From Centipeda periodontii DSM 2778 (lineage in GTDB: Bacteria > Bacillota > Negativicutes > Selenomonadales > Selenomonadaceae): DNA of 33,587 nucleotides. The notes beneath the pieces were generated by a model that saw only the letters and a program-made list of their open reading frames with translations, ran no database searches and was not told the origin of the DNA. Below are positions 5,049 to 23,283 of the stretch, one piece after another. A program made the position numbers and the translations under genes. Within the stretch, counting starts at the first letter, position 1; the number at the start of each line of letters is the position of its first letter. The stretch is from contig NZ_GL892076.1 in assembly GCF_000213975.1 (NCBI RefSeq), positions 1,963,492 through 1,997,078 on the forward strand, given 5' to 3'.

Positions 5049-5936
5049 TTACTTGAAGCGAACGAATCCGCGCGGCTTTTCACGTTCGTAACCGCTCGCC
5101 GCAGCGCGCTCCTCGTTATACGGGTCGGTGACGATAATCTTTGCATTCTGCGCCTGTTTTTCCCGTTCGACCTCTTCATCCAGTTGGACTTGACGCTGAT
5201 CGTTTTCGAGCTGAACCTTCGCCGCAAGCAGGGCTGTCACCTGTGATTGATCTGCGACACTGAGCGCGTTCAGCTGCTCCATGATCTGACGCAGCTCTGT
5301 TTCGCCTTTGGCGTTGGCAGCCGCTTCCACAAGACGGTGTACGGTCTCCCTCGTGTTATCGTTGTCTGCGATCGCCGCCTCTGCAATCTGCACGTATTTG
5401 GCAGCGGATGCGGAGATTTCCTTGCGCTGGCGCACGCGGTTGCGCGGTGCGTCGTAGTCTTCGTGCCTCTCATTGTAAGAATGGAACGCGTTGCTTTCCG
5501 TGAGCAAATCCTTCTGCATTGTATTATGTAATTCAGCAGCACGGCTCTGTTTTTCCTCCGTCAACCCTGTGGCAAGGTGCATAATCATCGGATCCAGAGG
5601 AATCTTGTTGATGATGTCAATGCCGAGCTGCTCCGCAATATTCTCGACGATATGCAGAAATTTTTCGCCGAACAGAACGGATTTGATGATGCGTGTGTAG
5701 TCGTAGACAGAACCGCCCTGCCACTCCAAGTCCCTGAAAAAATAGTGTGCGGGGTCGAAGGTATCACGCCATGAGATACGCACGGGATCCCAATAATTTT
5801 CAGGCTCCCACGGGTCCCCCCAGCCGCCCCATGCTTCGCCCTGATGGACATTGGAAAGGAGTGCGCCGACGGATGCTGCGACTGTAAATATCGCAACGAG
5901 CAGAATCGTCATTCGCCGCTTTTTGTTTCCTAACAT
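5049..5936 (-). CDS. TrbJ/VirB5-like protein (second copy)
   Basis: The 295-residue product has an N-terminal hydrophobic segment (about 9-27, probably a signal peptide), then an aromatic-rich stretch with WGGWGDPWEPENYW near 36-49. The rest is alpha-helical with many Ala, Gln and Glu; the C-terminal half around NALSVADQSQVTALLAAKVQ resembles TrbJ, the VirB5-type minor pilus/tip protein exported to the periplasm. The ATG is preceded by AAAGGAGGGG. It is the last gene of the trb operon, after the LytM-VirB6 fusion. A second TrbJ-like protein is encoded at 10059-10850. The TrbJ assignment is by composition and position and is moderate. Confidence 0.65.
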   Translation of the reverse strand: MLGNKKRRMTILLVAIFTVAASVGALLSNVHQGEAWGGWGDPWEPENYWDPVRISWRDTFDPAHYFFRDLEWQGGSVYDYTRIIKSVLFGEKFLHIVENIAEQLGIDIINKIPLDPMIMHLATGLTEEKQSRAAELHNTMQKDLLTESNAFHSYNERHEDYDAPRNRVRQRKEISASAAKYVQIAEAAIADNDNTRETVHRLVEAAANAKGETELRQIMEQLNALSVADQSQVTALLAAKVQLENDQRQVQLDEEVEREKQAQNAKIIVTDPYNEERAAASGYEREKPRGFVRFK

Positions 5937-6003: not shown

Positions 6004-7917
6004 TCAGAACATCCCCTGTCGGTCGGACAATTTGAACCCTGCCCCACCGAACTGCGTATTGACAAGTTTGCTGATGCGGTCAGCAAAATACATATACATA
6101 AGGACAACAAGAATGAGCTGCAAGAGCAGGATGTTGTTTGCAACAGCTTGTTTCACAACACCGCCGCTTCCTCCTAGGATCCCCATCAAGGTAGCTGTAT
6201 AGAATTCGAGTGATGAGCCAAAATAACCGCCGTGCTTGAGTGCTGCCGCAAATTCCTGTACGGTCTTTGCGTTATAGATCCCATCTTCAGCGTAGGCGTT
6301 ATAGTTTGACGCGGCGTACTGTGCATACTCCTCGTCACTGTCAAAGTGCCGGTAGTTATCGCCCTCCGGCGATATTCCCGCTATTTTTGCTCCATCTCCC
6401 GCCTTGATGCCACCGTAATTGTAATCTTCAACAGCGAGTGCACTCGAAAAGTGCCCGGATTCGAGTGCAAGCTGCGCCCAAATCCATTCAGGAGGAAGGC
6501 TTTTTCCATACCGCTCCTGCATGATCTGTGCGATGCGGTAAGCCAGTTCAGCCTTTGGACGACCGGAGATGGAGACACCGGATGCGCCGGGTGCTCCTCC
6601 GGCAGACTGCGCCTGTACGGTCTGTGACATGAGTTCGCCGACGACGATGTGCTCCATTGTCGATTGGAGCATCGCCGCAAAGAGGCAGAAGAACATGAGA
6701 TTGATCGATGCCGCAAATACACTGTTGATGCCGTTCGAGGCGAGATGGCGCACATGCTTCAGCCCCGCCAGAGGAAAGACGGTGAAACTAAAGAGAACCA
6801 TCATATAGAACTCGACATAGGCAAGCGCGATATAGTACCCGATGAGGCAGAAGAGCAGGAACAGAATACATCCAAGGATCAGCATGAGCAGAACCGCACC
6901 GGCACCCGCACCGCCGATCAAAAGGCTCAGAACATCGGAGATGCCGCCGGAACGGATTGCGCCGTTGAAGATCGGCGCGATAATGTTCATGCCCTTCTGC
7001 ACGATTTTTGTCGGATCGGAGACCGCCGCTTCCGCAGCTTCCGGATTTCCACCGGCAAGCCCGCCAAGAGCAGGAAAGCCATGAAGCGAAAGGTTGCCGA
7101 CAAAATCCCCCCAGTTGTAGAGGAGCGCAAGACAGAACCCATAGAAGAGTCCTCGTCGAACGAGCCACTTAAAGAGTCCCTCACGGTCTTCACTCGTTGG
7201 TGTCATCGCCTTATTCATTGCACCGAGCACAAGGTCGATTGCCACAAGGACAAAGAAGATCTTCGTCACATAGTTTTGCAACGCCTCCAGCCCTGTCGTG
7301 ATAAGCTCGACGACCTTGTTCACGAGATCGCTGATGGGCTTTGCGAAATCCTCTGTGACCGCCCAATCCTTTGTGTGCCCGTGGAAATCTACACCACCAA
7401 GCCCAAGCCCGCCGCCCTCTGCCTTCTCCAGTTCGAGCAGCCCAGGGACGTAGAGACCGGGATCGGTCGGCTCTCCATAGACACCATTCGGAAGCACCTC
7501 GAAATGACAATGCGGTCCCGTCGAATTGCCCGTGCTCCCCGCTTTTGCGATGAGCATTCCCTGCGTTACATACTCCCCCACGCCGACCAGAAGTTCCTGA
7601 TTATGCCCGTAAAGCGTATAGAGTGCCCCTCCATGATCGATCATGATGGTGTTGCCATAGCCCTGCATCCAGCCCGAATAACTCACCGTGCCCGATGCGG
7701 CAGCATAGATTGGATCTCCATAATCGACACCAAGATCGACACCTGCATGATAGGATTTCACACCGCTAATGGGATGGATGCGGTACCCCTGCGGACTGGT
7801 TACGACCATCGGCTGACCGACCGGAGAAACCATCAGCATCGCCGCTGCGGACTGCGCCGGAACAAAGGAGATGAGGAGGGCGAACAAAGCGGCAAATACG
7901 GTCAAAACGTGGCGCAT
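6004..7917 (-). CDS. Three-part fusion: LytM (M23) peptidase, VirB6/TrbL-like pore, glucosaminidase
   Basis: The start is the ATG at 7915-7917, 7 nt after AGGAGG, giving 637 residues; a Met six codons upstream has no ribosome site. Residues 1-25 are a signal peptide. Residues about 40-150 are a LytM/M23 endopeptidase with HAGVD (H57, D61), H105 and the HCH pair (H136, H138), the expected zinc and catalytic residues. Residues about 195-425 are polytopic and resemble TrbL/VirB6, with VEFYMMVL near 368 paralogous to IEFYTMAL in the neighbouring TrbL. Residues about 455-580 resemble a GH73-type glucosaminidase/lysozyme with Glu486 in LALESGHF and NYGGIK at 500-505. A last membrane helix lies near 593-611. 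It would cut both peptide and glycan bonds at the mating pore, a VirB1-like role joined to the pore. Confidence 0.85.
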   Translation of the reverse strand: MRHVLTVFAALFALLISFVPAQSAAAMLMVSPVGQPMVVTSPQGYRIHPISGVKSYHAGVDLGVDYGDPIYAAASGTVSYSGWMQGYGNTIMIDHGGALYTLYGHNQELLVGVGEYVTQGMLIAKAGSTGNSTGPHCHFEVLPNGVYGEPTDPGLYVPGLLELEKAEGGGLGLGGVDFHGHTKDWAVTEDFAKPISDLVNKVVELITTGLEALQNYVTKIFFVLVAIDLVLGAMNKAMTPTSEDREGLFKWLVRRGLFYGFCLALLYNWGDFVGNLSLHGFPALGGLAGGNPEAAEAAVSDPTKIVQKGMNIIAPIFNGAIRSGGISDVLSLLIGGAGAGAVLLMLILGCILFLLFCLIGYYIALAYVEFYMMVLFSFTVFPLAGLKHVRHLASNGINSVFAASINLMFFCLFAAMLQSTMEHIVVGELMSQTVQAQSAGGAPGASGVSISGRPKAELAYRIAQIMQERYGKSLPPEWIWAQLALESGHFSSALAVEDYNYGGIKAGDGAKIAGISPEGDNYRHFDSDEEYAQYAASNYNAYAEDGIYNAKTVQEFAAALKHGGYFGSSLEFYTATLMGILGGSGGVVKQAVANNILLLQLILVVLMYMYFADRISKLVNTQFGGAGFKLSDRQGMF

Positions 7918-7945
7918 ACATCGACCTCCTCTCAAAAAATAGGAC

Positions 7946-8324: not shown

Positions 8325-8359
8325 ACGACGGACAGGAAAGCAATCTGTCCGTCGTTTTT
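8325..8359 (+). terminator. Rho-independent terminator of the cargo gene
   Basis: ACGACGGACAG and CTGTCCGTCGT form an 11-bp perfect stem with a 9-nt loop followed by T5. It starts 7 nt after the stop codon and its T-run overlaps the stop codon of the convergent trbL gene. Confidence 0.9.
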
Positions 8360-9950
8360 AATTGTTGGTATCGTTGCCCGGCTGCGCAGCATTCGCTGTT
8401 TGCCTGTTTCGGCTATCTATGCCCGATCGCAGTTCTTGCAGGATGCGCGAACCGGAGTTGTCTTTCGTGCGCTGGAAGCTCCCGATCGCATCACGATAGC
8501 TCCGTACGGGGCTGCGGCTCATCACATAATTGCGACCGAGCTGTGTCAGTGTTCCTGTCATACCGCCCTTGCCCGTAGCTGCCGCTGCCGCCTGTGCCGC
8601 AGCAATGTTCCCCGTTGCCGCAGCAGCGCCGGCAACAGCCCCTTTGAGTGCACCGGTCATATCGCTGCCACTGAGTTGCGGCTGTCCGCTGAGAAGTCCG
8701 GAAACGAGCTGCGGAATCTTCTTGACGAGCAAGTAGATCAGGAGTGAGGCAAGCACTGCCTGAAACAGCAGGGCAAGGTCTTCGGCGGGATTATCCGCCT
8801 GAATAATCTTGTCGGCAAATCCTTCAATGAACGGCTTTGATACCGCCGATAGGAATGCGATGACGCAGACCTTGAGGGCAAGGTTGAACATCGCGCCAAT
8901 CGCCTTTTCCGTGAGGAAATTGAATTTGTTCATTGTGCCGAATGCAAGACACGGCAAGGCAAGAAGCGCCATCGTGTAAAACTCGATGCGCGCCATGAAC
9001 ATCTCGAGCGCGACCAGAAAGAGGCAGCCTCCAATGACGAGGATGCAAATAATGTCGAGGAGGAGTACGCCGGGCTGCATGGCAGTCGCGATGGTCTGTA
9101 CGACATCCGGAATCCAGCTGTCAGAGTTCGGCGTCCAGATCGCTGTAAACATCCGCAGCGCAATCTGCACAAAGGTATCACTTGCCTCGCCGACAATATT
9201 GTTCGCAATCGCGGTATTGTTCCCGCCGGCGCGGAATCCAAGCACCTCGAATCCGGACATGAGCGATCCCATGAGGCTGATCCAGTTCATCATGAGAAAC
9301 ATGAAGAACCCCATTTTCAGCGTCATGTTGATGAGATATTGGAGTTTGTCACCCGACATGAATTTGACCGTCAGCTCCCAGGTTGCCTGTACGACGGTCA
9401 GGATGACGAGGAGACGGAGACAGTAGGGCAGTATATTCTCCGCGCCGGGCACAATCACATGCTCCGTGTAATGGTTCATAAAAGAGCCAAGTATGTTGAT
9501 GTCCTCGACGCTTGTCCCTTCGCCGCTCACAAGTTCCGGCGTGAAATATTCCACCTGCTGCGTCTGCGCTGTCTGATTTGCCATCGACCAGACACCCGAT
9601 CCCATCAAGAATGAGCCGAAGTTGAAAGCCAGTCCTGCCCCCAGCATGAGCTGCCAGATGAATTTTTTGCCGTCCTCGATGCCAAAGGCGACCATCATGC
9701 CCGCGATCGCTGTCATGACGACAAGGACAACGTGCATCGCCTTGACAGCACCGTTTGCAAGCGTGGTCAGATTCTGATCGAATGTTCCCCCAAGCCCTGT
9801 ACCGGCGCTCGCAATGTCTTCTGAACTACCTGCGGCAAAGCCGATGCCGTTCATCTGAAAGAGGATAAGACCAAAAACGGCAAGCATGAGGAGAATATGT
9901 TTCGTGCGCAGTCGTTCCCTTAGTTTTCGTGCAATCCCTGCTGTCTCCAT
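8358..9950 (-). CDS. trbL: TrbL/VirB6 inner-membrane mating-pore protein
   Basis: The start is the ATG at 9948-9950, after GGAGGAGTAC; an ATG six codons upstream lacks a ribosome site. The 530-residue product has an N-terminal hydrophobic segment near 20-40, two helices at about 68-118, further helices between 175 and 240 and a block of four or more between 295 and 420. The segment IEFYTMALLALPCLAFG is typical of TrbL. The C-terminus is a polar, Ala/Gly-rich tail after residue 425, also usual for the family. The two-helix N-terminal region (FDQNLTTLANGAVKAM onward) is somewhat like a VirB2/TrbC pilin, but this is weak. TrbL forms the inner-membrane channel with VirB8 and VirB10. It lies downstream of a trbJ-like gene, as in RP4. 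Confidence 0.85.
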   Translation of the reverse strand: METAGIARKLRERLRTKHILLMLAVFGLILFQMNGIGFAAGSSEDIASAGTGLGGTFDQNLTTLANGAVKAMHVVLVVMTAIAGMMVAFGIEDGKKFIWQLMLGAGLAFNFGSFLMGSGVWSMANQTAQTQQVEYFTPELVSGEGTSVEDINILGSFMNHYTEHVIVPGAENILPYCLRLLVILTVVQATWELTVKFMSGDKLQYLINMTLKMGFFMFLMMNWISLMGSLMSGFEVLGFRAGGNNTAIANNIVGEASDTFVQIALRMFTAIWTPNSDSWIPDVVQTIATAMQPGVLLLDIICILVIGGCLFLVALEMFMARIEFYTMALLALPCLAFGTMNKFNFLTEKAIGAMFNLALKVCVIAFLSAVSKPFIEGFADKIIQADNPAEDLALLFQAVLASLLIYLLVKKIPQLVSGLLSGQPQLSGSDMTGALKGAVAGAAAATGNIAAAQAAAAATGKGGMTGTLTQLGRNYVMSRSPVRSYRDAIGSFQRTKDNSGSRILQELRSGIDSRNRQTANAAQPGNDTNN

Positions 9951-10006
9951 GTACTCCTCCGTCTTCATGATGTTATATATCTGTTTATGAATTTTTTACG
10001 ATTATA

Positions 10007-10058: not shown

Positions 10059-10850
10059 TCAGTGTTTTCCTGCAAAATCATGCAGTCTGTTGGCTACCGC
10101 CCGATCGCGCGCCTCTGCCTGTGCCTTTTCCGTGTTATCGACGTACCACTTCTGCGCCTGCATTGCAAGGAGCTGGGCAAGCAGTTCCTTTTGATCGGCG
10201 CCCTGCAGCACCCCCGCAGCGGCAATCTGGATTCCCGCCTGTAGTATCTGCTGCTGCCCCTCTGCCTTGTTTGCTGCGGCAACAGCCTCATGGACAGTTT
10301 CGTTCGTCGATTCCGTGACCTTCTGCGAAGCCTGTGCACGTTCAGCGGCTGCTCGGTAGGTCGCATCAAGCGCCTTGTGATTCTTCTGCGTCTGCTTGTA
10401 GAGATCGACGAGGGTCGCCTTGCCGTTGATCGCATCCTCGATCGCCCCGATCTCATTTTTCAGAATCGCGGTCGCCGAGCTGTTGACGTTGAGGATGCTG
10501 GGAATCTTCCCCTCTTTCTTGAGTGCAACAATATCCTGCACAATGTCGATCGTTTTGCAGAGGTCTTCCGCTTTTTTGTTCTTCCGCATCCAGCCTTTCA
10601 ACATGTCAATGTCGATTTTTTTGGCATCCAGAATCATCAGCCCCAGCTCTTTCTCCTCTGTGGTGAGAATTTTCGCCGTGGTGATCGCTGTCTTGATTGC
10701 TTCCTCAATATTTTGCTGGTCGAATACGGCGACGGCTGCCTCTGTTTGATGACTGCGCATCATCATTGCCGCAAGTGGCGTTGTGACGCCAAGGAGCAGC
10801 CCCGTAACAACTGCCATCTGTAAGCGCTTCGTACTCCAATTCTTGAACAT
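10059..10850 (-). CDS. trbJ: TrbJ/VirB5-like protein (first copy)
   Basis: The ATG at 10848-10850 follows AAAGGAGAAGGACC and gives 263 residues. Residues about 12-32 are a signal peptide or anchor ending near AMMM. The mature part is alpha-helical and Ala/Gln/Lys-rich, with FDQQNIEEAIKTAITTAK near its start, the usual opening of TrbJ/VirB5 proteins. VirB5 proteins are periplasmic and sit at the pilus tip, helping contact with the recipient. Its position just upstream of trbL matches the RP4 order trbJ-(trbK)-trbL. No lipobox is visible. Confidence 0.75.
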   Translation of the reverse strand: MFKNWSTKRLQMAVVTGLLLGVTTPLAAMMMRSHQTEAAVAVFDQQNIEEAIKTAITTAKILTTEEKELGLMILDAKKIDIDMLKGWMRKNKKAEDLCKTIDIVQDIVALKKEGKIPSILNVNSSATAILKNEIGAIEDAINGKATLVDLYKQTQKNHKALDATYRAAAERAQASQKVTESTNETVHEAVAAANKAEGQQQILQAGIQIAAAGVLQGADQKELLAQLLAMQAQKWYVDNTEKAQAEARDRAVANRLHDFAGKH

Positions 10851-10866
10851 GGTCCTTCTCCTTTCC

Positions 10867-12762
10867 CTAGCCGGTAGGCACATCACGAACGAGGACACGC
10901 TCTTTTTCGTAGGCAGTCAGCGTCTGTCCTTGCTCCATTTTGGTCTGTAAATATTTGGTCTCGGCTTGTTTGATGACGTTCTGCAGCCCCGGATTCCGTG
11001 TCTGAACGCTCTTTACAATGTTCTTTGCATAATCCTTCTGCGAGCGTCTGCGTGGGGAATTATGCTGAACTGCATTCTCAATCTCGCGCTCTTCATAGCC
11101 GATGGAGAAAAGATGCAGGATGATCTGCTCATCCATTTGCCCGTTAAATGGCAGCGGAATATCCCGCTCAATCTCCTCGCGGCAGTTTTCATACATTTCC
11201 TCTGCATCCTTATCGCCACGTACGCGCACCCGCTCACCGGAAAAGCTGTATTCTCTGAGCTTATGTTTCGCTGCGCGGATGCTTTTTTTGTCGGTCGGGA
11301 AAGAAGCAGGTGTATGTTCCTGCTCCTTCTCGACCTCCTCTCTCTCCTCCGAAGCATCCTGTGTTCGGATTCGTACCGCATCGCCCTGTGTACGCCGGAC
11401 GCCCTCCCAAACAGGTGCGGCATCTGTCTGCGATACTTCCGAGGCGCTCCCGACAGACACTTCCTGCACTTCTCTCGCTTCCGCAAGAATTTGGTTTAGG
11501 TACTCCTGTGTCCGTTCATGATCCGGGATGCCGCCAAACTCGAGGAGCAGTTCCCTAACCTCCTCCTCGCTGACACCGTACTTCGTGATGAGTTCCCGCG
11601 CCGCCAAGACGTTATAATGCCGGCGATCTGCGGCGACACCGGAATCCGCTCCGGCGTCGATGAGCGCGTCATCATAATCCGTGATGAGACGCTGATAGAT
11701 ATCCGCAAACTTCACATAATCCCCATAATCCCCATCGAAGAAAGAGGCTTGTTCCGGTTCTCCCGCCAAAAGTGCCGCAAGGGTCTTATCCGTATCCCTC
11801 CCTGCGGCAGCGAGAAGAGGCGATGCGCGAAGGATTCCTGCGCGCAGCAGTTCCTCATCCATTCCTGCAGCGCGCAGTGCCCCTACAATCTGCGCTTCCG
11901 CTTCGTATGGAAGGGTATCTCGCCGCAATGTACGCATCGCATCTTTGAGACACGCCCGATAGACTTCTGTGTCACTTTCCACATCTGGGGATGCCGCATC
12001 GATTCCATCATATACGCTGATCTCACGGACGGCAGCGGAGGCGATTTTCCGCACATACGCTTCTTTGTCCCGCCCCTCGTAGTCGGTCGCTCCCATCAGA
12101 AGCTGCGCTGCGGTTTCCTCCTGTGCGTTGGAATCCCGAAGAAACTGCGTAATTCCCTCGCCCTCGCGCACGGCAATGGGACGCGCTGCCTCCTTGCTGC
12201 GACGCTCCCAAACTTCTTGAAAAAGCGACTGCATCCCCTCCGTCTCTGCTTTAACGGATTCCACGATCATCGCTCGGTGCTTTTTCCAGACACGATGCTC
12301 AAATGCGGTGCGCTCTGCTGTATCACCGGCAAGAATGCCGTAGAGGCTTCCGCCGAGATACGCCTCACGCACCTCTCCGCGCGGAATATGCTGCGCCCGC
12401 ATATTCTCGAGAATCCCCTGATCTGCAGCCGCTAGGATTCCTGCAATCTGCCGCAGCGGCTTCTCGTAGAGGGCATTAAAGCGTGCGCCCGGTGCAGGAA
12501 GATTGAAATTTGTTTCTTCTGCTGCCCCCTGCGGCAGAATCTCACGAAAATATTCGTTTACAACGTCCTGATCGTCGAAAAGAAGGGGATAACGGCTTTC
12601 ATGCAGGGTCGTACGCAGCTGATTGATTCCGTACCCCTCGTTCTTCATGGAAAGCAGCACATTCTTTTCGATGCGCCGCACAGCGGCAAGGAGATTTGGC
12701 ATGGCAAGAGCTTCCGTGCGGTAGGCGAGCGCTGCGTCCATCCTGCTCACCGCTCTTTCCAT
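10867..12762 (-). CDS. Large helical protein with repeated modules, unknown function
   Basis: The 631-residue product starts at an ATG that overlaps the stop of the upstream gene by 16 nt, so translation is probably coupled. It has no signal peptide or membrane segment and should be cytoplasmic. I see a degenerate helical module of about 45 residues at roughly 30-77, 286-332, 385-427 and 544-586, of the form LxxxG-(S/M)-xEE-h-R/E followed later by a short helix; the second and fourth copies contain SP after the module core. Residues 430-500 are a charged linker. Similar small helical repeats occur in mobilisation and replication proteins of Firmicutes elements, but I cannot name a family. Its position between trbE and trbJ suggests a transfer role. 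Confidence 0.7.
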   Translation of the reverse strand: MERAVSRMDAALAYRTEALAMPNLLAAVRRIEKNVLLSMKNEGYGINQLRTTLHESRYPLLFDDQDVVNEYFREILPQGAAEETNFNLPAPGARFNALYEKPLRQIAGILAAADQGILENMRAQHIPRGEVREAYLGGSLYGILAGDTAERTAFEHRVWKKHRAMIVESVKAETEGMQSLFQEVWERRSKEAARPIAVREGEGITQFLRDSNAQEETAAQLLMGATDYEGRDKEAYVRKIASAAVREISVYDGIDAASPDVESDTEVYRACLKDAMRTLRRDTLPYEAEAQIVGALRAAGMDEELLRAGILRASPLLAAAGRDTDKTLAALLAGEPEQASFFDGDYGDYVKFADIYQRLITDYDDALIDAGADSGVAADRRHYNVLAARELITKYGVSEEEVRELLLEFGGIPDHERTQEYLNQILAEAREVQEVSVGSASEVSQTDAAPVWEGVRRTQGDAVRIRTQDASEEREEVEKEQEHTPASFPTDKKSIRAAKHKLREYSFSGERVRVRGDKDAEEMYENCREEIERDIPLPFNGQMDEQIILHLFSIGYEEREIENAVQHNSPRRRSQKDYAKNIVKSVQTRNPGLQNVIKQAETKYLQTKMEQGQTLTAYEKERVLVRDVPTG

Positions 12763-12968
12763 GCGGCTTTGAGTGCCGACCAGAAATCACCGACGCCGCT
12801 CGCATTCCCCCCGAACGGCTTGCCGAGCATCTCCGTGTCAATCTTCCCTTCCTTGACCGCCTGATTCAGAGCTTTTTCTAGGGCGTTCATGCGCGTCTCA
12901 ATGCAGTTGACCCGGATTGCAAAATAGCAGATCATGAGGACGCAGAGAAAGATGATGCTGGTCGTCAT
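12747..12968 (-). CDS. Small single-pass membrane protein
   Basis: The product has 73 residues with one N-terminal membrane helix (about 3-20) followed by a short coiled coil (IETRMNALEKALNQAV) and a polar tail. The ATG overlaps the trbE stop by 4 nt (ATGA), and its own end overlaps the next gene. It occupies a position between VirB4 and VirB5 homologues where small accessory membrane proteins of transfer operons are common. It is not a lipoprotein, so it is not an obvious VirB7. Confidence 0.7.
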   Translation of the reverse strand: MTTSIIFLCVLMICYFAIRVNCIETRMNALEKALNQAVKEGKIDTEMLGKPFGGNASGVGDFWSALKAAWKER

Positions 12969-15448
12969 AATGCTGCCGCCTCCTCTTTCGGATATTCCGG
13001 AACTACAAGCTCATTTTCCTTGATCCAATGCTCATTGAAGTTCTCTGCACCGTAGTTTTCGATAATGCGTTGGCATTTTGCGAGCGCAACATCTCCGACG
13101 GCTGCGTATGACAGCGTGAACGGGCACAGATCGAGTGCGAGGTTGTAAAGGCGCGACCCCTGCGGGCTGTCATAGTAGTATTCCCGCTGCGGCTGCGCAT
13201 GGGCAAGCAGATGAATCTGCTGCTTGTTGAGACCAAATTGCCGATAAAGCTCCATCCGGCTCTCCGTGATCGCGAGCTTGTCCGGCAGGAAGATACGCGA
13301 CTGACAGGAGGAAAGGACGGTATCAAGGATCGGGGACTTTGCAATATCGTCCAGCGACTGCGTGGCAAACAGTACGGATGTGTTGTACTTGCGCAGCGTC
13401 TTAAGCCATTCCTTGATTTTCTCCGCAAACATCGGATTCTGAAAGAAGACCCAGCACTCATCAAGGACGATGAGCGTCGGCTCCTGATTTTTCTTCTCCG
13501 CGCTTTTCACGACGTTCTCGATGCGATGGAAGATATACATGAGTGTCGTACCGACGATACGGCGCGCGTTCATCAAAGTCTCCATCTCAAAGCTCTGCCA
13601 GCTTGTGATGGATAAATGATCCTTGTTGCTGTCGAATATCTCCCCGTATTCTCCTTTGTTGCCCTGATCGTCGGCGAGGGACATCGGATAGAACGCTGTC
13701 TTCAGCTCTCTGCTTTGCAGAAAGCTGATGAACGTCGTCATCGTTCGATCGCTCTCCTGCATTCCTGCCACAGTGGCAAGAGAGTCGCGAATGATGCTTT
13801 TTTGCTCGGGCGTGACCTCAACGCCCTCCTCGCGCAAATAGTCACAGAGCCAGTCAAGCGCCCATTGCCGTTCATCCTCATCATCGATGCGTGAAAGAGG
13901 CTGAAAGGAAAGCGAGCGTGATTTGCCGACATCGTAGAACTTGCCGCCGACACCCATCGTGAGGATTTTGCTGGATGCGCCTTTATCAAAGATAATGACG
14001 CGCGCATTCGGGTATTTACGGAACGCCGCCTCAATACAGTTGAGATGGACGGATTTACCGGCTCCTGTCGGTCCGATCATGAGTGAGTGACCAACGCCTT
14101 TGATGTGCAGATTGAGCCGGTACGGCGTGCTGCCGTCCGTCTGTGTATAGAGGAGCGGCGGTCCGTTCAGATGCTTGTTTCGCTCATCCCCTGCCCATGC
14201 AAGGGCGAGCGGCATCATGTGAACGAGGTTTCCGGTCGAGATGAGTGGTCTGCGGATATTTGCCCCGACGAGTCCCGGAATGCAGCCGAGCCACGCATCG
14301 ATGGCGTTAAAGTCCTCGATTTTGACACGCTGCATACCGCGCTCGATAAAAATCTGCCGAATCAGTTTTGCCTTTTCTTCTACTACCTCCCGATCCTCGT
14401 CCATGACGATAATCGCCGTCGAGTAGTAGACGAAAGAGATGTGATCGCCCTCAACTGCGTTCATCGCATCCCGAATTTCGGCGATGCGATCAACGGCGAC
14501 ATCATCAATGTTTTCGGCATTCTGTACGCTGTCGCGCACGGTGACATCGGCAATCGTAGAGGAAAGCGACTGCGTTTTCCCCTTCCATTGCCGACGTTCA
14601 CTATCCAGCTGGCTGATCACGTCATTCTTGCTCATGCAATAAACACGAGTCACCCAGCGATATGCAAAGTCGAGACGATGAAACTCGTCAAAGAGTCCAA
14701 AAATGGACTCCTTGCCGTAGGAGATCGGAGCAATGATACGCATGTGCTTGCGCCCGAGCTGAGGTTCAAGTCCCCCGTAGAGCGGCGTATCATAGAGGTA
14801 CTTATCCAAAAGAAACGGCGTCTGTGGATATTTGAGCGCACGCGGACGATCGGAAACCGTCGAATGGAGATAGGTAAAAAGCCCGTCTTCGTCAAGAAAT
14901 TCCGTATCAATGCGCAAATTGCGGCACATCAGGTAGAGCTTGTGGAGCTGCTCGCCAAACGATTCGAGTACATCATCCGCTTTGGTAACTTTGCGCTCGC
15001 GCCCCTCAACGATAAACTCCTTGAGCTGTTCCTGCCGATCCTTCGGCGGCAAAAACAGAAGTGTTGCATAGAAATGAGACTCGAAATACATACCGCTCGA
15101 AAAGAGGCGGCAGCGTTCTGCATCCATCCCCCGCGTTACAATGTCCGGAAAAGCATTTGTCGTCTCGTATGCGGTAGACGGAACGCGCTGCGCCTCGAAG
15201 TAGAGCGTAAAGCCCGTCTTCATCGCCGCGATCGACGCCTGCATCCGATTCGCAATCACCGCAAGCTCTTCCTCCACAGAGGAATCCAGATCGGGACTGC
15301 GATAGCGCCATGACGCGAGGAGTGATCCGTCCTTGTTGATGCAGACAGCAACATGCTGCTCCGCAACCGTGATACTCGTGATACGACCAAACGGCATAAT
15401 ATCCGAGAGGCGATCCACCTTGCGCCGGAACAGATTAAGTCGGTACAT
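12965..15448 (-). CDS. trbE: TrbE/VirB4 conjugation ATPase
   Basis: The ATG at 15446-15448 is 8 nt after GGAGGAG; a GTG two codons upstream is the alternative. The 827-residue product is full length for VirB4. Residues 1-400 are the N-terminal VirB4 domain and residues about 440-800 the RecA-like ATPase, with Walker A GPTGAGKS at 459-466 and Walker B LIVLDE at 659-664, followed by the Gln motif FATQSLDDI. VirB4 energises pilus assembly and substrate transfer at the inner membrane. It overlaps both neighbours by a few bases, so the operon is tightly coupled. An ATPase-less paralogue precedes it. Confidence 0.95.
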   Translation of the reverse strand: MYRLNLFRRKVDRLSDIMPFGRITSITVAEQHVAVCINKDGSLLASWRYRSPDLDSSVEEELAVIANRMQASIAAMKTGFTLYFEAQRVPSTAYETTNAFPDIVTRGMDAERCRLFSSGMYFESHFYATLLFLPPKDRQEQLKEFIVEGRERKVTKADDVLESFGEQLHKLYLMCRNLRIDTEFLDEDGLFTYLHSTVSDRPRALKYPQTPFLLDKYLYDTPLYGGLEPQLGRKHMRIIAPISYGKESIFGLFDEFHRLDFAYRWVTRVYCMSKNDVISQLDSERRQWKGKTQSLSSTIADVTVRDSVQNAENIDDVAVDRIAEIRDAMNAVEGDHISFVYYSTAIIVMDEDREVVEEKAKLIRQIFIERGMQRVKIEDFNAIDAWLGCIPGLVGANIRRPLISTGNLVHMMPLALAWAGDERNKHLNGPPLLYTQTDGSTPYRLNLHIKGVGHSLMIGPTGAGKSVHLNCIEAAFRKYPNARVIIFDKGASSKILTMGVGGKFYDVGKSRSLSFQPLSRIDDEDERQWALDWLCDYLREEGVEVTPEQKSIIRDSLATVAGMQESDRTMTTFISFLQSRELKTAFYPMSLADDQGNKGEYGEIFDSNKDHLSITSWQSFEMETLMNARRIVGTTLMYIFHRIENVVKSAEKKNQEPTLIVLDECWVFFQNPMFAEKIKEWLKTLRKYNTSVLFATQSLDDIAKSPILDTVLSSCQSRIFLPDKLAITESRMELYRQFGLNKQQIHLLAHAQPQREYYYDSPQGSRLYNLALDLCPFTLSYAAVGDVALAKCQRIIENYGAENFNEHWIKENELVVPEYPKEEAAAL

Positions 15449-16559
15449 ATTCACTCTCCTCCCAGTCCTGCGACACGATCAGCTCCTCCAGCTCCGGCGG
15501 CAGAGGAGGCGTCGGGGCTTCCGGTGTATGCTGCGCTATGCTTTTCGTTGCAAGAAGCTCCTCAATCGTCCGGAAGCCGCAGATCGGCGGGACAACTGCC
15601 GCACGGAAAAGTCCGGGCAGACTGCCCCACCAGAGATCTTTGGCATTATAATCCTCAACGATATACGGAATCCCAAGCGTCCCAAGAAGTTTTTCAAGAT
15701 ACGCTTCCGTCCGGGCATAATCTTCCTGCGAGACAAGCGCAATGGTCTGATTATTGTAGTACCCGTTCAGCCGCTGCAGCATGTGCCCCGTCAAAATATC
15801 TTTGATATATTTTCGTGACGGACACCATTTCCCTGTGTAATTTCGCAGCTCTTTTTCCGCTTCCGCTTTATCAAAAAGAAGCAGTCGCTGCACATGACGG
15901 CATGGAATCCCGGCACCGTGAAGATCCTCGGTGAGCTGCCGCAGCACCGACTCCTGTGAGCCAACGACGGACGGCAGTGTCAAGACGAGTAACTTCTCAT
16001 CACCGAGGCGGACATGATTGCTCGCAAAGTCAAGATCGATCCCCGCCGTAAGAAAAACATCCAGATCGACGGGGACATCCGGCATAGCAACGTGCGTCCG
16101 TCCTAGCGTCAAGGAAAAGGTAAGATAATCGACAATCTCCTGATAAGAAAGGACAGTCGCCTCGGCTTCCTTCGGAAAACTCCACGCCATCCGACGCAGC
16201 GTCACCGCAAGATCATATTCCATGTCGTAGAGGAGCTGTGGCGTGTCTTCCAAGCCGTTCACCACTTCGTCATCCTTGAGGAAAGGATTCCAGCAAAGGG
16301 TAAGGAAGCACTCTACGTCCCCGTCCACTGCATACTGTTCTTCGATCCAGATGCTCCATCCTCTGCGGAATGTCGGCAGAAAGATGGGGTTTTTCCACTC
16401 GAAGAACTGGACATGCTGCGGAGGATCGAACCGCTTGTAGCGGATTACCCCCAAAACGCTGTCGTCTTTATTGCGCATGACGTTTTCATGTGTCAATGCA
16501 CCCCAAGGCAGCCAGTCTGCGATTGTTTTGTTGTCGAGATGATACTCTTTCCAAGACAT
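15435..16559 (-). CDS. VirB4/TrbE N-terminal-domain paralogue lacking the ATPase
   Basis: The ATG at 16557-16559, after AAAGGATCG, gives 374 residues; upstream in-frame Met codons lie within trbD. The protein aligns by pattern with the first 400 residues of the following TrbE: WWGSLPGLFRAAV here corresponds to WLGCIPGLVGANI there. It stops with a Pro/Glu-rich tail where the RecA domain should begin, so Walker A and B are absent. It overlaps the trbE start by 14 nt. It could be a structural partner in a mixed VirB4 ring or a remnant of a duplication; its intact frame and good ribosome site favour function. Confidence 0.8.
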   Translation of the reverse strand: MSWKEYHLDNKTIADWLPWGALTHENVMRNKDDSVLGVIRYKRFDPPQHVQFFEWKNPIFLPTFRRGWSIWIEEQYAVDGDVECFLTLCWNPFLKDDEVVNGLEDTPQLLYDMEYDLAVTLRRMAWSFPKEAEATVLSYQEIVDYLTFSLTLGRTHVAMPDVPVDLDVFLTAGIDLDFASNHVRLGDEKLLVLTLPSVVGSQESVLRQLTEDLHGAGIPCRHVQRLLLFDKAEAEKELRNYTGKWCPSRKYIKDILTGHMLQRLNGYYNNQTIALVSQEDYARTEAYLEKLLGTLGIPYIVEDYNAKDLWWGSLPGLFRAAVVPPICGFRTIEELLATKSIAQHTPEAPTPPLPPELEELIVSQDWEESEYVPT

Positions 16560-16572
16560 AGCATACGATCCT

Positions 16573-16854
16573 TTACGTTGAGTAATAGTCGCGCTTTGAC
16601 CAATAGCGACTGAAGCACTCGAAGAATTGCGCGTCTTCCATCGAAAAATAACGTACAGCGAAATGCACAACGACATTCACGCTCAGAACGTACCAGTAGG
16701 ATAGTCCAAGGGTCAGCAGAATAAGCAGTGCTGCGCCGACATTCCAGACAATGCAGCTGCGTGGCACATCCATAAATAGGATGTACTCCGTCAGCGACCG
16801 GTAGATTGGAAGATGAATCCACGAGGCACCCTGCACATTTTTATTCTCATCCAT
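16573..16854 (-). CDS. trbD: TrbD/VirB3-like membrane protein
   Basis: The product has 93 residues, the usual size for VirB3/TrbD. The N-terminal motif IYRSLTEYILFMDVPR is typical of TrbD (HRSLT...GVPR). Hydrophobic residues at about 37-60 form one or two membrane helices. The ATG follows AAGGGG and lies 9 nt after the trbC stop. TrbD works with the VirB4 ATPase, whose homologues are the next two genes. Confidence 0.9.
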   Translation of the reverse strand: MDENKNVQGASWIHLPIYRSLTEYILFMDVPRSCIVWNVGAALLILLTLGLSYWYVLSVNVVVHFAVRYFSMEDAQFFECFSRYWSKRDYYST

Positions 16855-16863: not shown

Positions 16864-17283
16864 TTAGAACAAGGTACCGCTGATACCGGTGCCAAACATA
16901 TTCTCCATGAACTTGCCAACGCCGAGTGCGATTGCTCCACCACTCGCTCCCTTGACGCAGCGCGTCATGATTTGCTGTTTCCAGCCCATTGCCCAGCTCA
17001 TACCGCCCATCGCAATAGACCCTGCAATGACAAGCTTCGGAATCGGACCGGTGAGTGCGGCGGAGATGGTCTGAAGGGGCTTATCGAGCGGGTCAATGCC
17101 TGTCGTGATCGTCTCCGCAGCCCCATCATTTGCAAAGCCAACAGCTGCCGGCAGCATATAAAGCCCCATAAGGGCAAGCGTCGGCAGAGATGCCTTTGCG
17201 AAGGACAGAACATCCTTCTTCGTGATGCTGCGCATCGCCGCGATCTTGCTGCTCAGTTCCATCTTTACACGCTGGATTTTCAT
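16864..17283 (-). CDS. trbC: TrbC/VirB2 prepilin
   Basis: The 139-residue product has a long leader with a hydrophobic segment at about 33-50 ending in GFA, then a Gly/Ala-rich mature part with two membrane helices (about 82-98 and 110-128), the VirB2/TrbC layout. The ATG follows GGGAGGAAATCACA. In RP4 the prepilin is cleaved and cyclised by TraF, whose homologue is encoded at 24375-24923. It is the first gene of the mating-pore operon and lies about 60 nt downstream of dyad promoter B. Confidence 0.9.
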   Translation of the reverse strand: MKIQRVKMELSSKIAAMRSITKKDVLSFAKASLPTLALMGLYMLPAAVGFANDGAAETITTGIDPLDKPLQTISAALTGPIPKLVIAGSIAMGGMSWAMGWKQQIMTRCVKGASGGAIALGVGKFMENMFGTGISGTLF

Positions 17284-17385: not shown

Positions 17386-17440
17386 GTTCGTTGTAATGGA
17401 ATTGTTTGTTCCTTTTTATAAAATTATTTGTTCACCGTAT

Positions 17441-18638: not shown

Positions 18639-19074
18639 TTAATCTTCCAGCTCTTTCGGCTCATCCAGTCGATGCGTTATGTAGTCATGCGCCTCTCTGT
18701 CCCATCCATCAATAGAGAGCACTTCCGCAATAACACGCGATGCCGCCCTGCGCTCGATGTAGACAATCACATCGATGGCGCGGGCAATGCCCGCTTGCTG
18801 TGAGGAGATGGAAACGCGACTGACAAGATCCTCAAGACGGAACAGCGTATCATGGGCACTGTCACTATGTACGGTGGAGCAGCCCCCGCGATGCCCGGTT
18901 GACCACGCATCGACGAGCGTCAATGCCTCCTTGCCGCGCACCTCACCGACGACAATCCGATTCGGCGAGAGGCGCAGCGTTTTCCGTAGCAGGTTATCCA
19001 TATCCACGGTGTCTGTGGTCGAGAGTGCGACATAGTTCTCCGCCGTGCACTTGAGTTCTTTCGTGTCCTCAATC
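18639..19074 (-). pseudogene. trbB: trbB/virB11 ATPase, C-terminal fragment
   Basis: The fragment begins at the IS end in the conserved VirB11 strand IEDTKELKC and continues without interruption for about 145 residues. It keeps LRLSPNRIVVGEVRG (Walker B region) and the His box GHRGGCSTVHS, but the N-terminal domain and Walker A are gone. About half of a normal 310-330-residue TrbB is missing. It cannot be an active ATPase. VirB11 normally powers substrate and pilus switching, so transfer may be impaired unless another copy exists; some systems do work without VirB11. Confidence 0.9.
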
Positions 19075-19105
19075 TTGACATACTCCCCACGGCTAAAGCC
19101 GGGGG
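19075..19105 (-). repeat. Right end of the IS608-like element
   Basis: The hairpin at 19085-19105 reads CCCC-CGGC-TTTA-GCCG-T-GGGG on the minus strand, with a bulged T, preceded by GAAT and followed by AGTATG and the cleavage site TCAA. By analogy with other TnpB elements, this end would form the 3' part of the guide (omega) RNA, with the guide read from flanking DNA, here trbB. Confidence 0.75.
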
Positions 19106-19147: not shown

Positions 19148-20257
19148 TTACAATGCCTCTCCAAAGAAGGTCGATGCCCCAACCTTCAAGATGTTCTTTG
19201 CGGTGTTCCTGTCCCGATCATGAACGGCACCGCAATGCGGACATGTCCATTCTCGGACGCGCAAATCTTTCGTTTCCGGATTCTGCGCGCCGCAGATATG
19301 GCAGGTTTGTGAGCTCGCATAGTACCGATCTATCTTTTGAATGCTCGTTCCTGTTTTGCTCGCCTGATGTTCGAGAATTTTCACAAACTCCGCAAAGCCG
19401 TAGTCCGAGATCTTTCTGCCCCATCGTTTCTGCATTCCCCTCAGGTTCAAGTCCTCGATGCACACAAGAGCGTATTCCTCGCAGATCGCATGTGTCAGCT
19501 TGAAATGAAAGTCTTTGCGCTGATTGGCTGTTTTCTTATGCAAACGGGCGAGTGCAAGTCGTGCCCTCTTTCGATGGTTCGACCCTTGCTTTTTCCGTGC
19601 AAGCGCTTTCCCTGCCCTGCGTATCGCTGCTACATTCTCCTTGAAAAAGAGTGGGGCTTCCCTGTCGTTTCCGTCCGATGCTGTGAGAAACTGCCTGAGT
19701 CCGAAGTCATAGCCGACGCTTTTACCTGTTCTTGCCAAGACTTCGTTTTCCACTGTTTCACAGACGAAATAAAGATAGAGGTCCCCAAGTGCATCCCGCT
19801 TGATGGTGACGGTCTTGACCACACCTTCGATGGCACGGCTTTTGAAATAGCGGTACTTTTGCGTACCGATTTGGACGGCATTTCCCTCTAGGAGCTTCCA
19901 CCCTGCCTGCTTCAAGGTATACGATTTATACTTTCTCACCTTCTTGAACGAGGGCGGCGCCGTGCGCACCTTTTGTTTCAGATTTCGAAAAAACAGTTTG
20001 TAGGCACGGTCAATCCGCTGTGTGATGTCCTGCACCGCCTGTGAACCGATTTCTTTCAGATAGGAAAACCGGGGTATCTTTTTGAGCTTCGTGAGATGTT
20101 TTTGCAGGGCATAGACGTTCAGCGATTTGTGATATAGACGATAATACCGTTTGTGCAGAGCAATACAGTGATTATAAATGAGACCTGCCGCATTGATTTG
20201 TCGGTGGAGCTTTCGGTTTCTCTTTGCCTTGTACAGCTTAAAGCAGTAGGTCTTCAT
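19148..20257 (-). CDS. tnpB: TnpB RNA-guided nuclease
   Basis: The 369-residue ORF is intact. The RuvC residues are present: Asp184 in VGYDFGL, Glu268 in CIEDLNLRG and the DRDRNTAKN motif at 347-355. The zinc finger has Cys319, Cys322, Cys339 and Cys342. The N-terminal wedge/REC part is normal in size. TnpB proteins are guided by omega RNA from the right end of the element and cut DNA next to a TAM that equals the insertion target, here expected to be TTAC. The nuclease helps restore the element at vacated donor sites. No tnpA is adjacent. Confidence 0.95.
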   Translation of the reverse strand: MKTYCFKLYKAKRNRKLHRQINAAGLIYNHCIALHKRYYRLYHKSLNVYALQKHLTKLKKIPRFSYLKEIGSQAVQDITQRIDRAYKLFFRNLKQKVRTAPPSFKKVRKYKSYTLKQAGWKLLEGNAVQIGTQKYRYFKSRAIEGVVKTVTIKRDALGDLYLYFVCETVENEVLARTGKSVGYDFGLRQFLTASDGNDREAPLFFKENVAAIRRAGKALARKKQGSNHRKRARLALARLHKKTANQRKDFHFKLTHAICEEYALVCIEDLNLRGMQKRWGRKISDYGFAEFVKILEHQASKTGTSIQKIDRYYASSQTCHICGAQNPETKDLRVREWTCPHCGAVHDRDRNTAKNILKVGASTFFGEAL

Positions 20258-20396: not shown

Positions 20397-20437
20397 CCCC
20401 AGCCCTAAAGGGCGGGGCTTTACGGCGCATTGGGTAA
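20397..20437 (-). repeat. Left end and TTAC target of the IS608-like element
   Basis: The hairpin at 20397-20417 reads CCCC-GCCC-TTTA-GGGC-T-GGGG on the minus strand, the same design as the right end, with AAAG immediately 5' of it. The TTAC target lies at 20434-20437, 16 nt outside the hairpin, and is the Leu-Thr coding sequence of trbI. Confidence 0.8.
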
Positions 20438-21345
20438 GGCTGTCATAAACATCCGCACTGACCTGCGCCGTTACTTGCCCGGGAACGGCGGTATCAATCC
20501 CCGTAAAGAGCATCGCAGGAATCAGCGTCCCTGCCTGAACGACATAGGGACTTCCGGAGGTAAGGGACAGATTCGCAGTCTGCAAGGTGTTCGACGCGGG
20601 AATTGTCGGTGCTTCTCCAGACGGCTGCGGCAGTCTCTCCTCCTGCGTTGCTATTGCCGCTCCGTCCCAATGCAAAGTCGATGGCAGACGCAAATCGTTT
20701 TTCAAGTTCATCTGCGGCGCGTTTTTCCGCAGCAAGCGCAGCATTTGCCGGCACAGCAGCAGATATCGGGACGGCAGCAGGTGTCGGGACAGCCGCAGTC
20801 ACCGGAGCACTATAAACGCCTCCCCCCGGTGACGCAGCAACACTGTATGACTGCGACGGAATATCTTGCTCACCACGATTCACACGAGCTACAACATGCG
20901 CATCATCGGAATCCATCGGCTGTGCACTCGCGACGCGAGTCCCCTGATTTCGCTGGTCGAGTGCACGCAGATCACGGTAACTGAGTTCATCCTTTGCGGC
21001 AGCTTCTCCTGCATGTGATGGTGTCTTTGTCTCCTGTACCGATGATCCGTTTGGACGGCGCGGGGCTTTGCTCCCGGGATCGTCTTGAAAGAAGACATAG
21101 CTCATTGTGAACGCAAGCAAGAGTCCAATGACGGTAAATCCGACAATTTTGCGTCGAACCCCATAAACTCTCTTGTGAACGCCGCTGTTCATGCGGACAT
21201 CGCCGGGATTCTGGTCGCTTGCGTCTCCCTCAAGTTCTTTCGGAGACTCCTGTGCCTCATCCTCGTCCGTTGTGCGGCTGCGGTTACGGTTGAAATGGGT
21301 CTTAAAGGCTTGAATGAATTTGGTGATACTGCCCATATTCGCCAT
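20434..21345 (-). pseudogene. trbI: trbI/virB10, frameshifted and truncated by the IS
   Basis: The ATG at 21343-21345 follows GAGGTGAGCAGT. The first frame gives a cytoplasmic N-terminus, a membrane helix near 63-80 and a Pro/Ala-rich periplasmic linker, as in VirB10. Around 20640-20660 the coherent VirB10 sequence moves to another frame, where NLSLTSGSPYVVQAGT and LIPAMLFTGIDTAVPG are classical VirB10 strands; one extra base in GGAGGAGAGA explains it. The frame then meets the IS after VYDSLT, so the C-terminal beta-barrel and outer-membrane antenna are lost. A chimeric stop lies at 20391 in the IS. VirB10 links inner and outer membranes; this copy cannot do so. Confidence 0.85.
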
Positions 21346-21350
21346 ACTGC

Positions 21351-22527: not shown

Positions 22528-23283
22528 CTACTTCGCCTGTTCCTGCTGCTGTGTAGGCTGGCTCTGATTATTCTTTTGCTTTGTTCCGATTTCTGCCGAG
22601 AAGTTGAGATCGGAGATATAAAGTCCCAGCGGATTCACAAGCAAAGTCTGATCGTCCTTCGGTGGGATCGTGGTCACAGCAAAGACACACTCATATTTTT
22701 TTACGTCCTGTTTGCCGCTGGCAATGTTGAACTCCTCCTCTGTCCATGTAGCATGGTAGGAATCCGTATCCGGAATCTTCTTGATACCAGTGATCTTTGT
22801 TTGGACGGTATACATCGCATACTTGTTCTTGAATCCTTCATTGCGCTGGATTGCCGCATATTTTTGTGCGGCTGCTTGCGTGAGGTAAGCAAATGCTTTT
22901 CCCTGCATCTTTTCCTGTTGGACAGGATCGAGCTGGATATTCCGGGCGTTTTGTATAAACTGCCCGATAAAATAGCGAACCTCGACTTCCTGCGGGGTGT
23001 AGTCCTGTGCTATAAAAGCACCTGCTTTTTCTACCTCGCCCGTGGACTTATCCACAGTGACGACGTAAGGGATAATCTGCGATTTGAGCGACTGCACCGT
23101 CAATCCGATGGAGAGTACAACACAGGCAACCAAAAGACCGATTGCAATACGTCGCCAGTTGTAATTTTGCATGGCAACGCCCCCAATGCGTCGATCGATC
23201 ACCTCGCGCGCCTGTTCGGCAGGACTTAGTGTCTTGCTGGTGTCGGAAAACTTCTCCGGCTGCTGAAAAGATTTTAATCCCAT
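22528..23283 (-). CDS. trbF: TrbF/VirB8 inner-membrane assembly protein
   Basis: The 251-residue product has a short cytoplasmic N-terminus, one membrane helix at about 46-66 and a periplasmic NTF2-like VirB8 domain. Diagnostic strands are IIPYVVTVDKSTGEV just after the helix and the C-terminal NPLGLYISDLNFS. The C-terminus ends in a Gln-rich tail. VirB8 nucleates the pore and binds VirB6, VirB9 and VirB10. The ATG follows GGGAGGTAGAAC, 3 nt after the preceding gene. Confidence 0.92.
   Translation of the reverse strand: MGLKSFQQPEKFSDTSKTLSPAEQAREVIDRRIGGVAMQNYNWRRIAIGLLVACVVLSIGLTVQSLKSQIIPYVVTVDKSTGEVEKAGAFIAQDYTPQEVEVRYFIGQFIQNARNIQLDPVQQEKMQGKAFAYLTQAAAQKYAAIQRNEGFKNKYAMYTVQTKITGIKKIPDTDSYHATWTEEEFNIASGKQDVKKYECVFAVTTIPPKDDQTLLVNPLGLYISDLNFSAEIGTKQKNNQSQPTQQQEQAK

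Follow-up and report, generated by a model that had tools for sequence, protein, structure and literature searches.

A 33,587-nucleotide stretch of the genome of Centipeda periodontii DSM 2778 (contig NZ_GL892076.1, positions 1,963,492 to 1,997,078; hereafter the window) carries genes of a Trb-type type IV secretion system (T4SS). One of them encodes a VirB6/TrbL-type membrane protein that is joined to two peptidoglycan hydrolase domains, an M23/LytM domain and a GH73-type glucosaminidase. The architecture is real and conserved and, as far as searched, undescribed. We consider it probable, though well short of certain, that the fusion is a specialised second VirB6/TrbL of the Trb-type T4SS that opens the peptidoglycan at the machine and is able to replace VirB1. 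The gene and its parts are the following.

6004..7917, minus strand: fusion gene, M23/LytM plus VirB6/TrbL with an internal GH73 glucosaminidase, 637 amino acids (Pfam, NCBIfam, alignment).
7843..7917, minus strand: predicted signal-peptide-like N-terminus, residues ~1-25 (hydropathy).
7477..7752, minus strand: M23/LytM domain, residues 56-147, with H57, D61, H136 and H138 (Pfam, invariant residues, fold Z ~20).
6634..7335, minus strand: main VirB6/TrbL part, residues 195-428 (Pfam, hhalign to TrbL, match to R388 VirB6).
6178..6534, minus strand: GH73-type glucosaminidase slot, residues 462-580, with Glu486 (Pfam, slot alignment).
6049..6165, minus strand: residues 585-623, the final hydrophobic helix within the VirB6 part (hydropathy, model, VIA-align range 198-624).

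The open reading frame (ORF) runs from 7917 to 6004 and starts with ATG, with a TTG in frame at 7935. Pfam analysis of the whole protein assigned Peptidase_M23 to residues 56-147 (E 1.4e-30, 105.8 bits, cut-off 28.7), TrbL (PF04610) to residues 243-425 (E 2e-11, 44.5 bits, cut-off 25.9) and Glucosaminidase (PF01832) to residues 462-580 (E 2.2e-9, 38.5 bits, cut-off 30.2). With all three domains above their cut-offs, the zinc-ligand motifs complete and Glu486 present, the three-domain fusion proposed in an earlier note on this DNA is confirmed. The NCBIfam model TrbL_P (TIGR02783) matched the fusion with an E-value of 1.6e-20, but at 73.7 bits the match lies below the equivalog cut-off of 128.85, as does that of the canonical TrbL of the window (113.9 bits). 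H57, D61, H136 and H138, which make up the HxxxD and HxH motifs, were invariant across a 22-row alignment of fusions. Glu486, which we take to be the catalytic glutamate, sits in an LALES motif of the slot (alignment, counted by eye); the name GH73 for the PF01832 slot is likewise our assumption. Hydropathy analysis revealed hydrophobic stretches at residues ~212-240, 324-386, 395-427 and 586-619. Since the last one comes after the glucosaminidase, the enzyme is an insert within the VirB6 part, ahead of its final helix, and does not form the C-terminus of the protein as had been thought. According to hydropathy and Pfam, the protein combines VirB6 hydrophobic helices with large hydrophilic domains, as in extended VirB6 proteins. 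Pfam found no CHAP domain in the fusion, and the layout is not that of a PrgK-type (DELTA class) VirB1. The slot enzyme of the window matches Glucosaminidase and not SLT and lies inside a VirB6-type protein, so it does not belong with the separate soluble SLT enzymes of the GAMMA class of VirB1 either. Among solved structures, the sequence of the GH73 slot gave three matches, none of them convincing (best E 0.49), and no second copy of the slot was found in the window's own genome at E-values up to 1.

The same architecture was found in many relatives. A profile of 22 fusions located M23 joined to VirB6, by hand count, at at least 48 places in at least 41 of 380 Negativicutes genomes, belonging to eight families; a match had to start at or before model position 100 and end at or after position 390, and at most three candidates were scored per genome. 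Altogether 45 distinct fusion proteins remained when identical copies were removed from 51 loci with flanks. At least eight more places lie outside this set, either because no flanks were fetched for them or because the genes are split (G053, G099:C325, G087, G336, G241, G356, L044 and L047); in L044 and L047, from Mitsuokella and Selenomonas bovis assemblies, the fusion gene is broken into two reading frames. A Pfam scan of 25 relatives gave M23 in all 25 and TrbL in 24, the exception being the Veillonella protein L038, whose VirB6 assignment rests on alignment. Plasmids of Selenomonas sp. oral taxon 920, Megamonas funiformis and Veillonella rogosae carry genes of the fusion type. Among GTDB contigs a scan found ten fusion loci; nine bear the label Mitsuokella, Selenomonas, Megamonas or another of the Selenomonadales, and the tenth that of a Ruminococcaceae metagenome bin. 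The fusion could in principle have arisen by chance or as an annotation artefact, with a mis-assembly fusing separate genes, but 45 distinct fusions found across numerous assemblies, including three in plasmid records, are independent copies that refute this explanation, and we give it practically no weight; a unique or chimeric artefact is ruled out on the same ground.

The search was widened to 398 Bacillota genomes, of which we assigned 14 to the Negativicutes by their label (own, same genus, same family or same class). The matches listed reach down to E ~7e-50, and among them the join occurs in three genomes, namely the window's own and two other Negativicutes; 14 genomes gave no match. 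Among the matches listed for the ~384 other Bacillota genomes there was no join, and those matches cover the M23 part only. When plasmids were queried with three fusions, the matches listed (the best 60 of 3788, 25 of 1444 and 15 of 888 partly matching records) included no plasmid of another phylum with at least 80% coverage, such coverage being found only in Megamonas and Selenomonas plasmids. A phage origin was considered and rejected: no relative was found in viral contigs (70 pattern matches in one scan, none of them a relative, and no pattern match in another), and of 50,697 phage records 1200 matched, none over 80% of the protein, with the best 10 covering the M23 part only. Two apparent TrbL-SLT joins in Proteobacteria (H65 and H67) turned out to be separate lytic transglycosylase genes. 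The earlier note had treated the arrangement as out of the ordinary; it proved to be widespread in Negativicutes, and as to its novelty no prior description was found among the papers listed by searches of an open-access library.

The M23 end is the constant hydrolase of the family. Its four motif residues are complete in 39 of the 45 fusions, two of the others being interrupted by contig ends and four having Cys at position 136. L121-L124 come from four genomes in other families of the Negativicutes; all four copies alike have Cys instead of the first His of the M23 HxH motif. The M23 part of the structural model aligned with the solved LytM domains 9gy1 (Z 20.4), 4bh5 (Z 20.2) and 2b13 (Z 19.2), and 3csq (phi29 gp13) also aligned with it (Z 12.2). 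The suspected kinship with the stand-alone M23 enzyme of the element was borne out only in part.

26877..27374, minus strand: stand-alone M23 enzyme of the element (Pfam; the same-genus genome G025 also has one, of 152 amino acids).

This enzyme is real, but at 45% identity it is less similar to the M23 domain of the fusion than an EnvC-type chromosomal protein of the window's own genome (58%), and the identity to EnvC-type proteins of other genomes reaches ~65%. The EnvC-type proteins have ~370 residues, share the M23 domain with the fusion, have no VirB6 part and are encoded next to genes resembling FtsX and CtpA; EnvC, FtsX and CtpA are our presumed names for these chromosomal genes. In a tree of 129 columns with 43 fusions and 23 other M23 domains (L039 and L040 were omitted as truncated), a single origin of the fusion M23 domains was not demonstrable, the fusions being mixed with other, mostly EnvC-type, M23 domains (5 changes, bootstrap not settled).

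This kinship bears on the question of whether the M23 domain cuts at all. It could be a regulator or activator, like EnvC, DipM or the LytM domain of PrgK, while the glycosidase alone cuts, a possibility that we regard as unlikely. It would fit with EnvC-type proteins being the nearest M23 relatives outside the family, with the Cys in four fusions, and with passages of PMC11323569 according to which the LytM domain of PrgK is degenerate and reduces the muramidase activity of that protein. However, PrgK LytM is without HXXXD and HXH (same passages), whereas 39 of the 45 fusions have all four residues, and the Veillonella fusion L038 retains its M23 domain while its slot is empty.

In contrast to the M23 end, the inserted enzyme varies. 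The slots, assigned to classes by eye from their alignment, with SLT and phage lysozyme confirmed by Pfam in examples, contain a lysozyme-like enzyme in 23 of the 45 fusions, SLT in 12, GH73 in four, a second lysozyme-like type in four and a phage tail lysozyme in one, and one slot is empty. The prediction of a glucosaminidase was correct for the window's fusion; across the family the second enzyme is not always of this kind, GH73 accounting for 4 of the 45 (the window, its relative G025 and two Mitsuokella copies). The phage tail lysozyme is a Phage_lysozyme2 domain in L029 (same gene as L119), and the empty slot is that of the Veillonella plasmid L038. A Glu-containing motif of active-site type was found in 44 of the 44 filled slots, with patterns picked per class. 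The lysozyme-like slot has no Pfam name, its SLT and Transglycosylas matches falling below the cut-off. Its profile matches to solved structures were weak (best E 0.23), four of the five being lysozymes and the fifth an antibody. When modelled alone, it matched a GH23 chitinase, a soluble lytic transglycosylase, leech destabilase and g-type lysozyme, with Foldseek E-values of 0.15 or worse and middling VIA-align Z-scores of up to 7.5. The sequence links being this weak, it is fold class, motif and position that support the putative lysozyme-like class.

When a tree is built from the VirB6 part alone, the slot types need 7 changes, compared with a minimum possible of 5 and with 20.1 for shuffled labels. 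The window and G025, both with GH73, are sister to the SLT copy of Selenomonas bovis with a support of 100/96, although S. bovis carries a flag for a long row. The GH73 copies of Mitsuokella are sister to a copy with a lysozyme slot with a support of 98/86. The simplest reading is that the slot enzyme would have been exchanged between enzyme families while the VirB6 frame and the M23 end were retained.

The fusion has two kinds of neighbour, a canonical TrbL gene and VirB5/TrbJ-like genes.

5049..5936, minus strand: J2, the second VirB5/TrbJ-like gene, which immediately follows the fusion (hhalign J1 vs J2).
8358..9968, minus strand: canonical TrbL/VirB6, 536 amino acids (Pfam E 2.1e-15; TIGR02783 E 8.6e-33).
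10059..10898, minus strand: first VirB5/TrbJ-like gene (J1), between TrbE and TrbL (same family as TrbJ-matching J1 genes).

An ordinary TrbL gene, the presence of which the earlier note had stated, adjoins the fusion, and the note's idea of a specialised second VirB6 copy agrees with the presence of TrbL upstream of 36 of the 45 distinct fusions (37 when a contig-cut TrbL piece at L108 is counted). Five of the eight fusions with no TrbL upstream either begin at a contig end (L039, L040) or have only 1.5-2.9 kb of upstream sequence (L043, L045, L119). J2 follows the fusion in 43 of 45 cases, the exceptions being L111 (contig end) and L040 (next ORF without a J2 profile match); these neighbour counts are based on script-called ORFs. 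The operon order is J1, TrbL, fusion, J2; in Megamonas-type elements a TraF-like peptidase separates fusion and J2. In hhalign, J1 and J2 were paired with a probability of 98.8 (E 9.7e-17) and TrbL and the fusion with a probability of 99.7 (E 3.4e-26), while three unrelated control pairings stayed below 1%. J1 proteins match TrbJ profiles (best E 4.8e-12, TIGR02780); the window's J2 itself matches such profiles weakly (E 0.006 and 0.034), and the four other J2 proteins scanned gave no direct match. Judged from the sequences, the whole VirB5-VirB6 pair is duplicated, because the second VirB5-like gene J2 is present too.

Comparison of the fusions of the window and G025 (597 of 637 residues identical) gave a ratio of nonsynonymous to synonymous substitution rates (dN/dS) of 0.094 over the gene, with 0.064 in the VirB6 part, 0.107 in the slot and 0.185 in the M23 end. 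These values, together with the neighbours, are relevant to the idea that the VirB6-like part is a mere membrane anchor, the protein being a tethered VirB1 analogue and the canonical TrbL alone building the stalk. With TrbL accompanying 36 of 45 fusions, a second structural VirB6 is not obviously needed, and the VirB1 proteins of Gram-positive bacteria are membrane-anchored hydrolases according to passages of PMC12857230. A plain anchor, however, need not retain a whole VirB6-like domain or a second VirB5-like gene, and the VirB6 part is more constrained than the M23 end. We find this explanation rather unlikely, if the most serious of the alternatives.

In the preferred interpretation, the fusion would act as a specialised second VirB6/TrbL subunit, its gene forming a pair with that of a second VirB5/TrbJ-like protein; the M23 domain would sever stem-peptide cross-links and the glycosidase the glycan strands, so that a machine-fixed subunit would open its own hole in the peptidoglycan, which elsewhere is the job of soluble VirB1. 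We infer the activity of the fusion, its presence in the assembled machine and the timing of its action. The likely orientation follows from R388 VirB6, which according to passages of PMC9259494 has seven helices, of which only helices 1 and 2 enter the inner membrane, and the bulk of which is a pentamer in the periplasm (PMC12857230, likewise in passages). If this topology is valid here, the M23 end and the inserted glycosidase would by analogy both face the periplasm, and wall cutting would plausibly take place at the channel itself. More tentatively, and with rather less than even confidence, we suggest that the conjugation systems of Negativicutes might have two stalks or one mixed stalk, made of a plain VirB5-VirB6 pair and a VirB5'-VirB6' pair, the five-fold ring of the latter showing ten cutting domains. 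If this were true, wall opening would be a structural function of the pore, with a glycosidase cassette swapped to suit the wall and no soluble VirB1.

The relation to VirB1 was assessed from the separate SLT genes in the fetched flanks. A separate VirB1-like SLT gene lies near the fusion at 10 distinct loci, all of them with a lysozyme-like slot, and none was found within the flanks of any of the 12 SLT-slot fusions, nor in those of the fusions with GH73, second-type, phage-lysozyme or empty slots. As flank lengths vary, such absence is firm only where the record is complete. The Megamonas plasmid is a complete record of 46 kb, and its single SLT match is the fusion itself. A tblastn search of the window gave no SLT domain. 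The coexistence at 10 loci suggests two jobs, and the fusion might have another one than donor machine assembly, e.g., cutting the wall of the recipient or opening the wall for the pilus only. The second VirB5-like partner would be in line with this, since VirB5 is placed at the pilus tip in passages of PMC9259494 and PMC12857230, but a polytopic inner-membrane protein would be unlikely to exit the donor, and we hold this alternative to be quite improbable.

Several observations weigh against a second VirB6 that replaces VirB1. The AlphaFold model of the whole fusion, built with nine sequences, is weak overall (mean predicted local distance difference test score, pLDDT, 55.8; predicted template modelling score 0.42), and the pLDDT of the GH73 segment is mostly below 50. 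In this weak model, the VirB6 part (198-624) matched R388 VirB6 (7o3v_J; Z 12.9, 237 residues, root-mean-square deviation 4.8) and the further VirB6 structures 8rtd_H (Z 12.4) and 8rt9_F (Z 12.3), but for helical proteins Z-scores under ~13 lie within the range of common arrangements and are not decisive. One M23 His is replaced by Cys at position 136 in 4 of the 45 fusions (families f21, f25, f27 and f28), and passages of PMC11323569 on PrgK show that a T4SS hydrolase may contain an inactive LytM domain. Some branches of the slot tree are long, among them that of the S. bovis copy. In L107, L109 and L111 another gene, not recognised as TrbL, lies directly upstream of the fusion. Because a separate SLT gene coexists at 10 loci, the fusion is not always a VirB1 replacement; with no such gene within the flanks of the other 13 lysozyme-slot fusions, the relation is not a clean either-or. 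Finally, the T4SS of the window is probably transfer-dead, since it is without VirD4 and parts of VirB10 and VirB11.

Compared with known systems, the fusion is like the VirB6/TrbL proteins of Trb- and VirB-type T4SSs, e.g., TrwI of R388, in profile match, gene neighbourhood and, at a level that is not decisive, predicted fold. It differs from them in having an N-terminal M23 domain and an internal glycosidase and in accompanying a canonical TrbL as an additional copy. Extended VirB6 proteins of Rickettsiales and of Gram-positive systems of the mating-pair-formation type FA (MPF-FA) likewise carry extra domains, the contribution of which is not yet known according to passages of a 2025 review (PMC12857230), whereas the extras of the fusion can be recognised as peptidoglycan hydrolases, one at the N-terminus and one ahead of the final helix. 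PrgK of pCF10, a DELTA-class VirB1, also unites LytM and muramidase domains in one T4SS protein (passages of PMC11323569 and PMC12857230). Its LytM domain is degenerate, a CHAP domain is present and it is listed there as a membrane-anchored hydrolase apart from VirB6, while the fusion has an intact-looking LytM domain inside a VirB6 protein. The muramidase and LytM domains of PrgK are reported to resemble phi29 gp13 (passages of PMC11323569), a wall-degrading phage tail enzyme that, like the fusions, combines LytM with a lysozyme-type domain, and one fusion has a Phage_lysozyme2 slot; gp13, however, is without a VirB6 part and has the order lysozyme then LytM (same passages). With VirB1 of the GAMMA class, the soluble SLT enzyme of Gram-negative T4SSs, the fusion shares the proposed role and, in 12 of 45 cases, the SLT domain. 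VirB1 is a separate enzyme, soluble and periplasmic in Gram-negatives and membrane-anchored in Gram-positives, according to passages of the 2025 review PMC12857230, whereas the enzyme of the fusion is built into VirB6. No description of VirB6 joined to hydrolases was found among the papers listed by the open-access searches, including passages of PMC3464263, PMC12624023, PMC12102498 and PMC11294453.

The other T4SS genes of the window are listed below.

12965..15454, minus strand: TrbE/VirB4 ATPase (Pfam, tblastn).
16573..16854, minus strand: VirB3 (Pfam).
16864..17283, minus strand: TrbC/VirB2 pilin (Pfam).
18639..19079, minus strand: trbB/virB11, 3' part only (tblastn, residues 172-325 of 328; N-terminal half missing compared with G025).
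19148..20257, minus strand: TnpB/OrfB_IS605 gene replacing ~3.6 kb (5' trbB, virD4, 3' trbI) (Pfam, comparison with G025).
20434..21354, minus strand: trbI/virB10, 5' part only (tblastn, comparison with G025).
21351..22502, minus strand: TrbG/VirB9 (NCBIfam).
22528..23283, minus strand: TrbF/VirB8 (NCBIfam).
24375..24923, minus strand: TraF signal peptidase (NCBIfam).

In G025, trbB, virD4 and trbI are full length; the window is without the corresponding stretch (L116:723-4365) and has the TnpB gene there (window 19074-20434). VirD4 was not found in the window's genome with a query that, in identical form, finds VirD4 in G025. On this comparison, the T4SS of the window is very probably no longer able to transfer DNA. 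As the system is broken, the finding concerns the fusion family and not the window's copy.

Further observations were made on the neighbourhood. Window 12965-16676 holds tandem VirB4/TrbE-like ORFs of 413 and 829 amino acids (414 and 838 in G025), the smaller of which has a weak TrbE match and no Pfam match. A 631-residue protein with a RepB primase C-terminal match (window 10867-12762) lies between TrbE and TrbJ, and relatives of it (401 to 833 amino acids) hold the same place in several related elements. Just 3' of J2, a short ORF at 4675-5016 matches the epsilon antitoxin family (28.1 bits, cut-off 25). At L107, an open frame of at least 1864 amino acids lies directly upstream of the fusion where TrbL is expected, and other very long ORFs (e.g., 2091, 2336 and 2479 amino acids) are located downstream of J2 in several elements. 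An AbiEii-type nucleotidyltransferase gene is present at 17441-18142, within a stretch (17397-18652) that has no counterpart in the element of G025. A long anti-restriction-type protein at 1399-3612 has ArdC N-terminal, zincin MPTase-PolyVal and DarA C-terminal domains. A long CRISPR-like repeat array, with a peptide pattern repeated in several frames, is found in 31900-33587, extending past the window, and in L141. Elsewhere in the same genome (L140, 2326000-2345500), a TrbL of 571 amino acids at 2.337 Mb and the two pieces of a split TrbJ gene, beside which no fusion was recognised, are likely a remnant of a second conjugative element.

The fusion family touches on how a T4SS crosses the peptidoglycan, how the cut stays local and when cutting ends. 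According to passages of a 2025 review (PMC12624023), lysis by VirB1 must end at some point, and how it is regulated is not yet understood in full. A cutter that is part of VirB6 would directly confine the wall cut. The fusions give extra domains of the extended-VirB6 type a recognisable chemistry, and their identity puts a name to genes now recorded on plasmids as 'peptidoglycan DD-metalloendopeptidase family protein' or 'transglycosylase SLT domain-containing protein'. Swapping of the glycosidase with a constant remainder is a natural experiment on the wall chemistry needed by a conjugation machine. In the Negativicutes, a class of bacteria with an outer membrane, a VirB6 subunit seems to have taken on the task of VirB1; its glycosidase is exchangeable, and its partner is a second VirB5.

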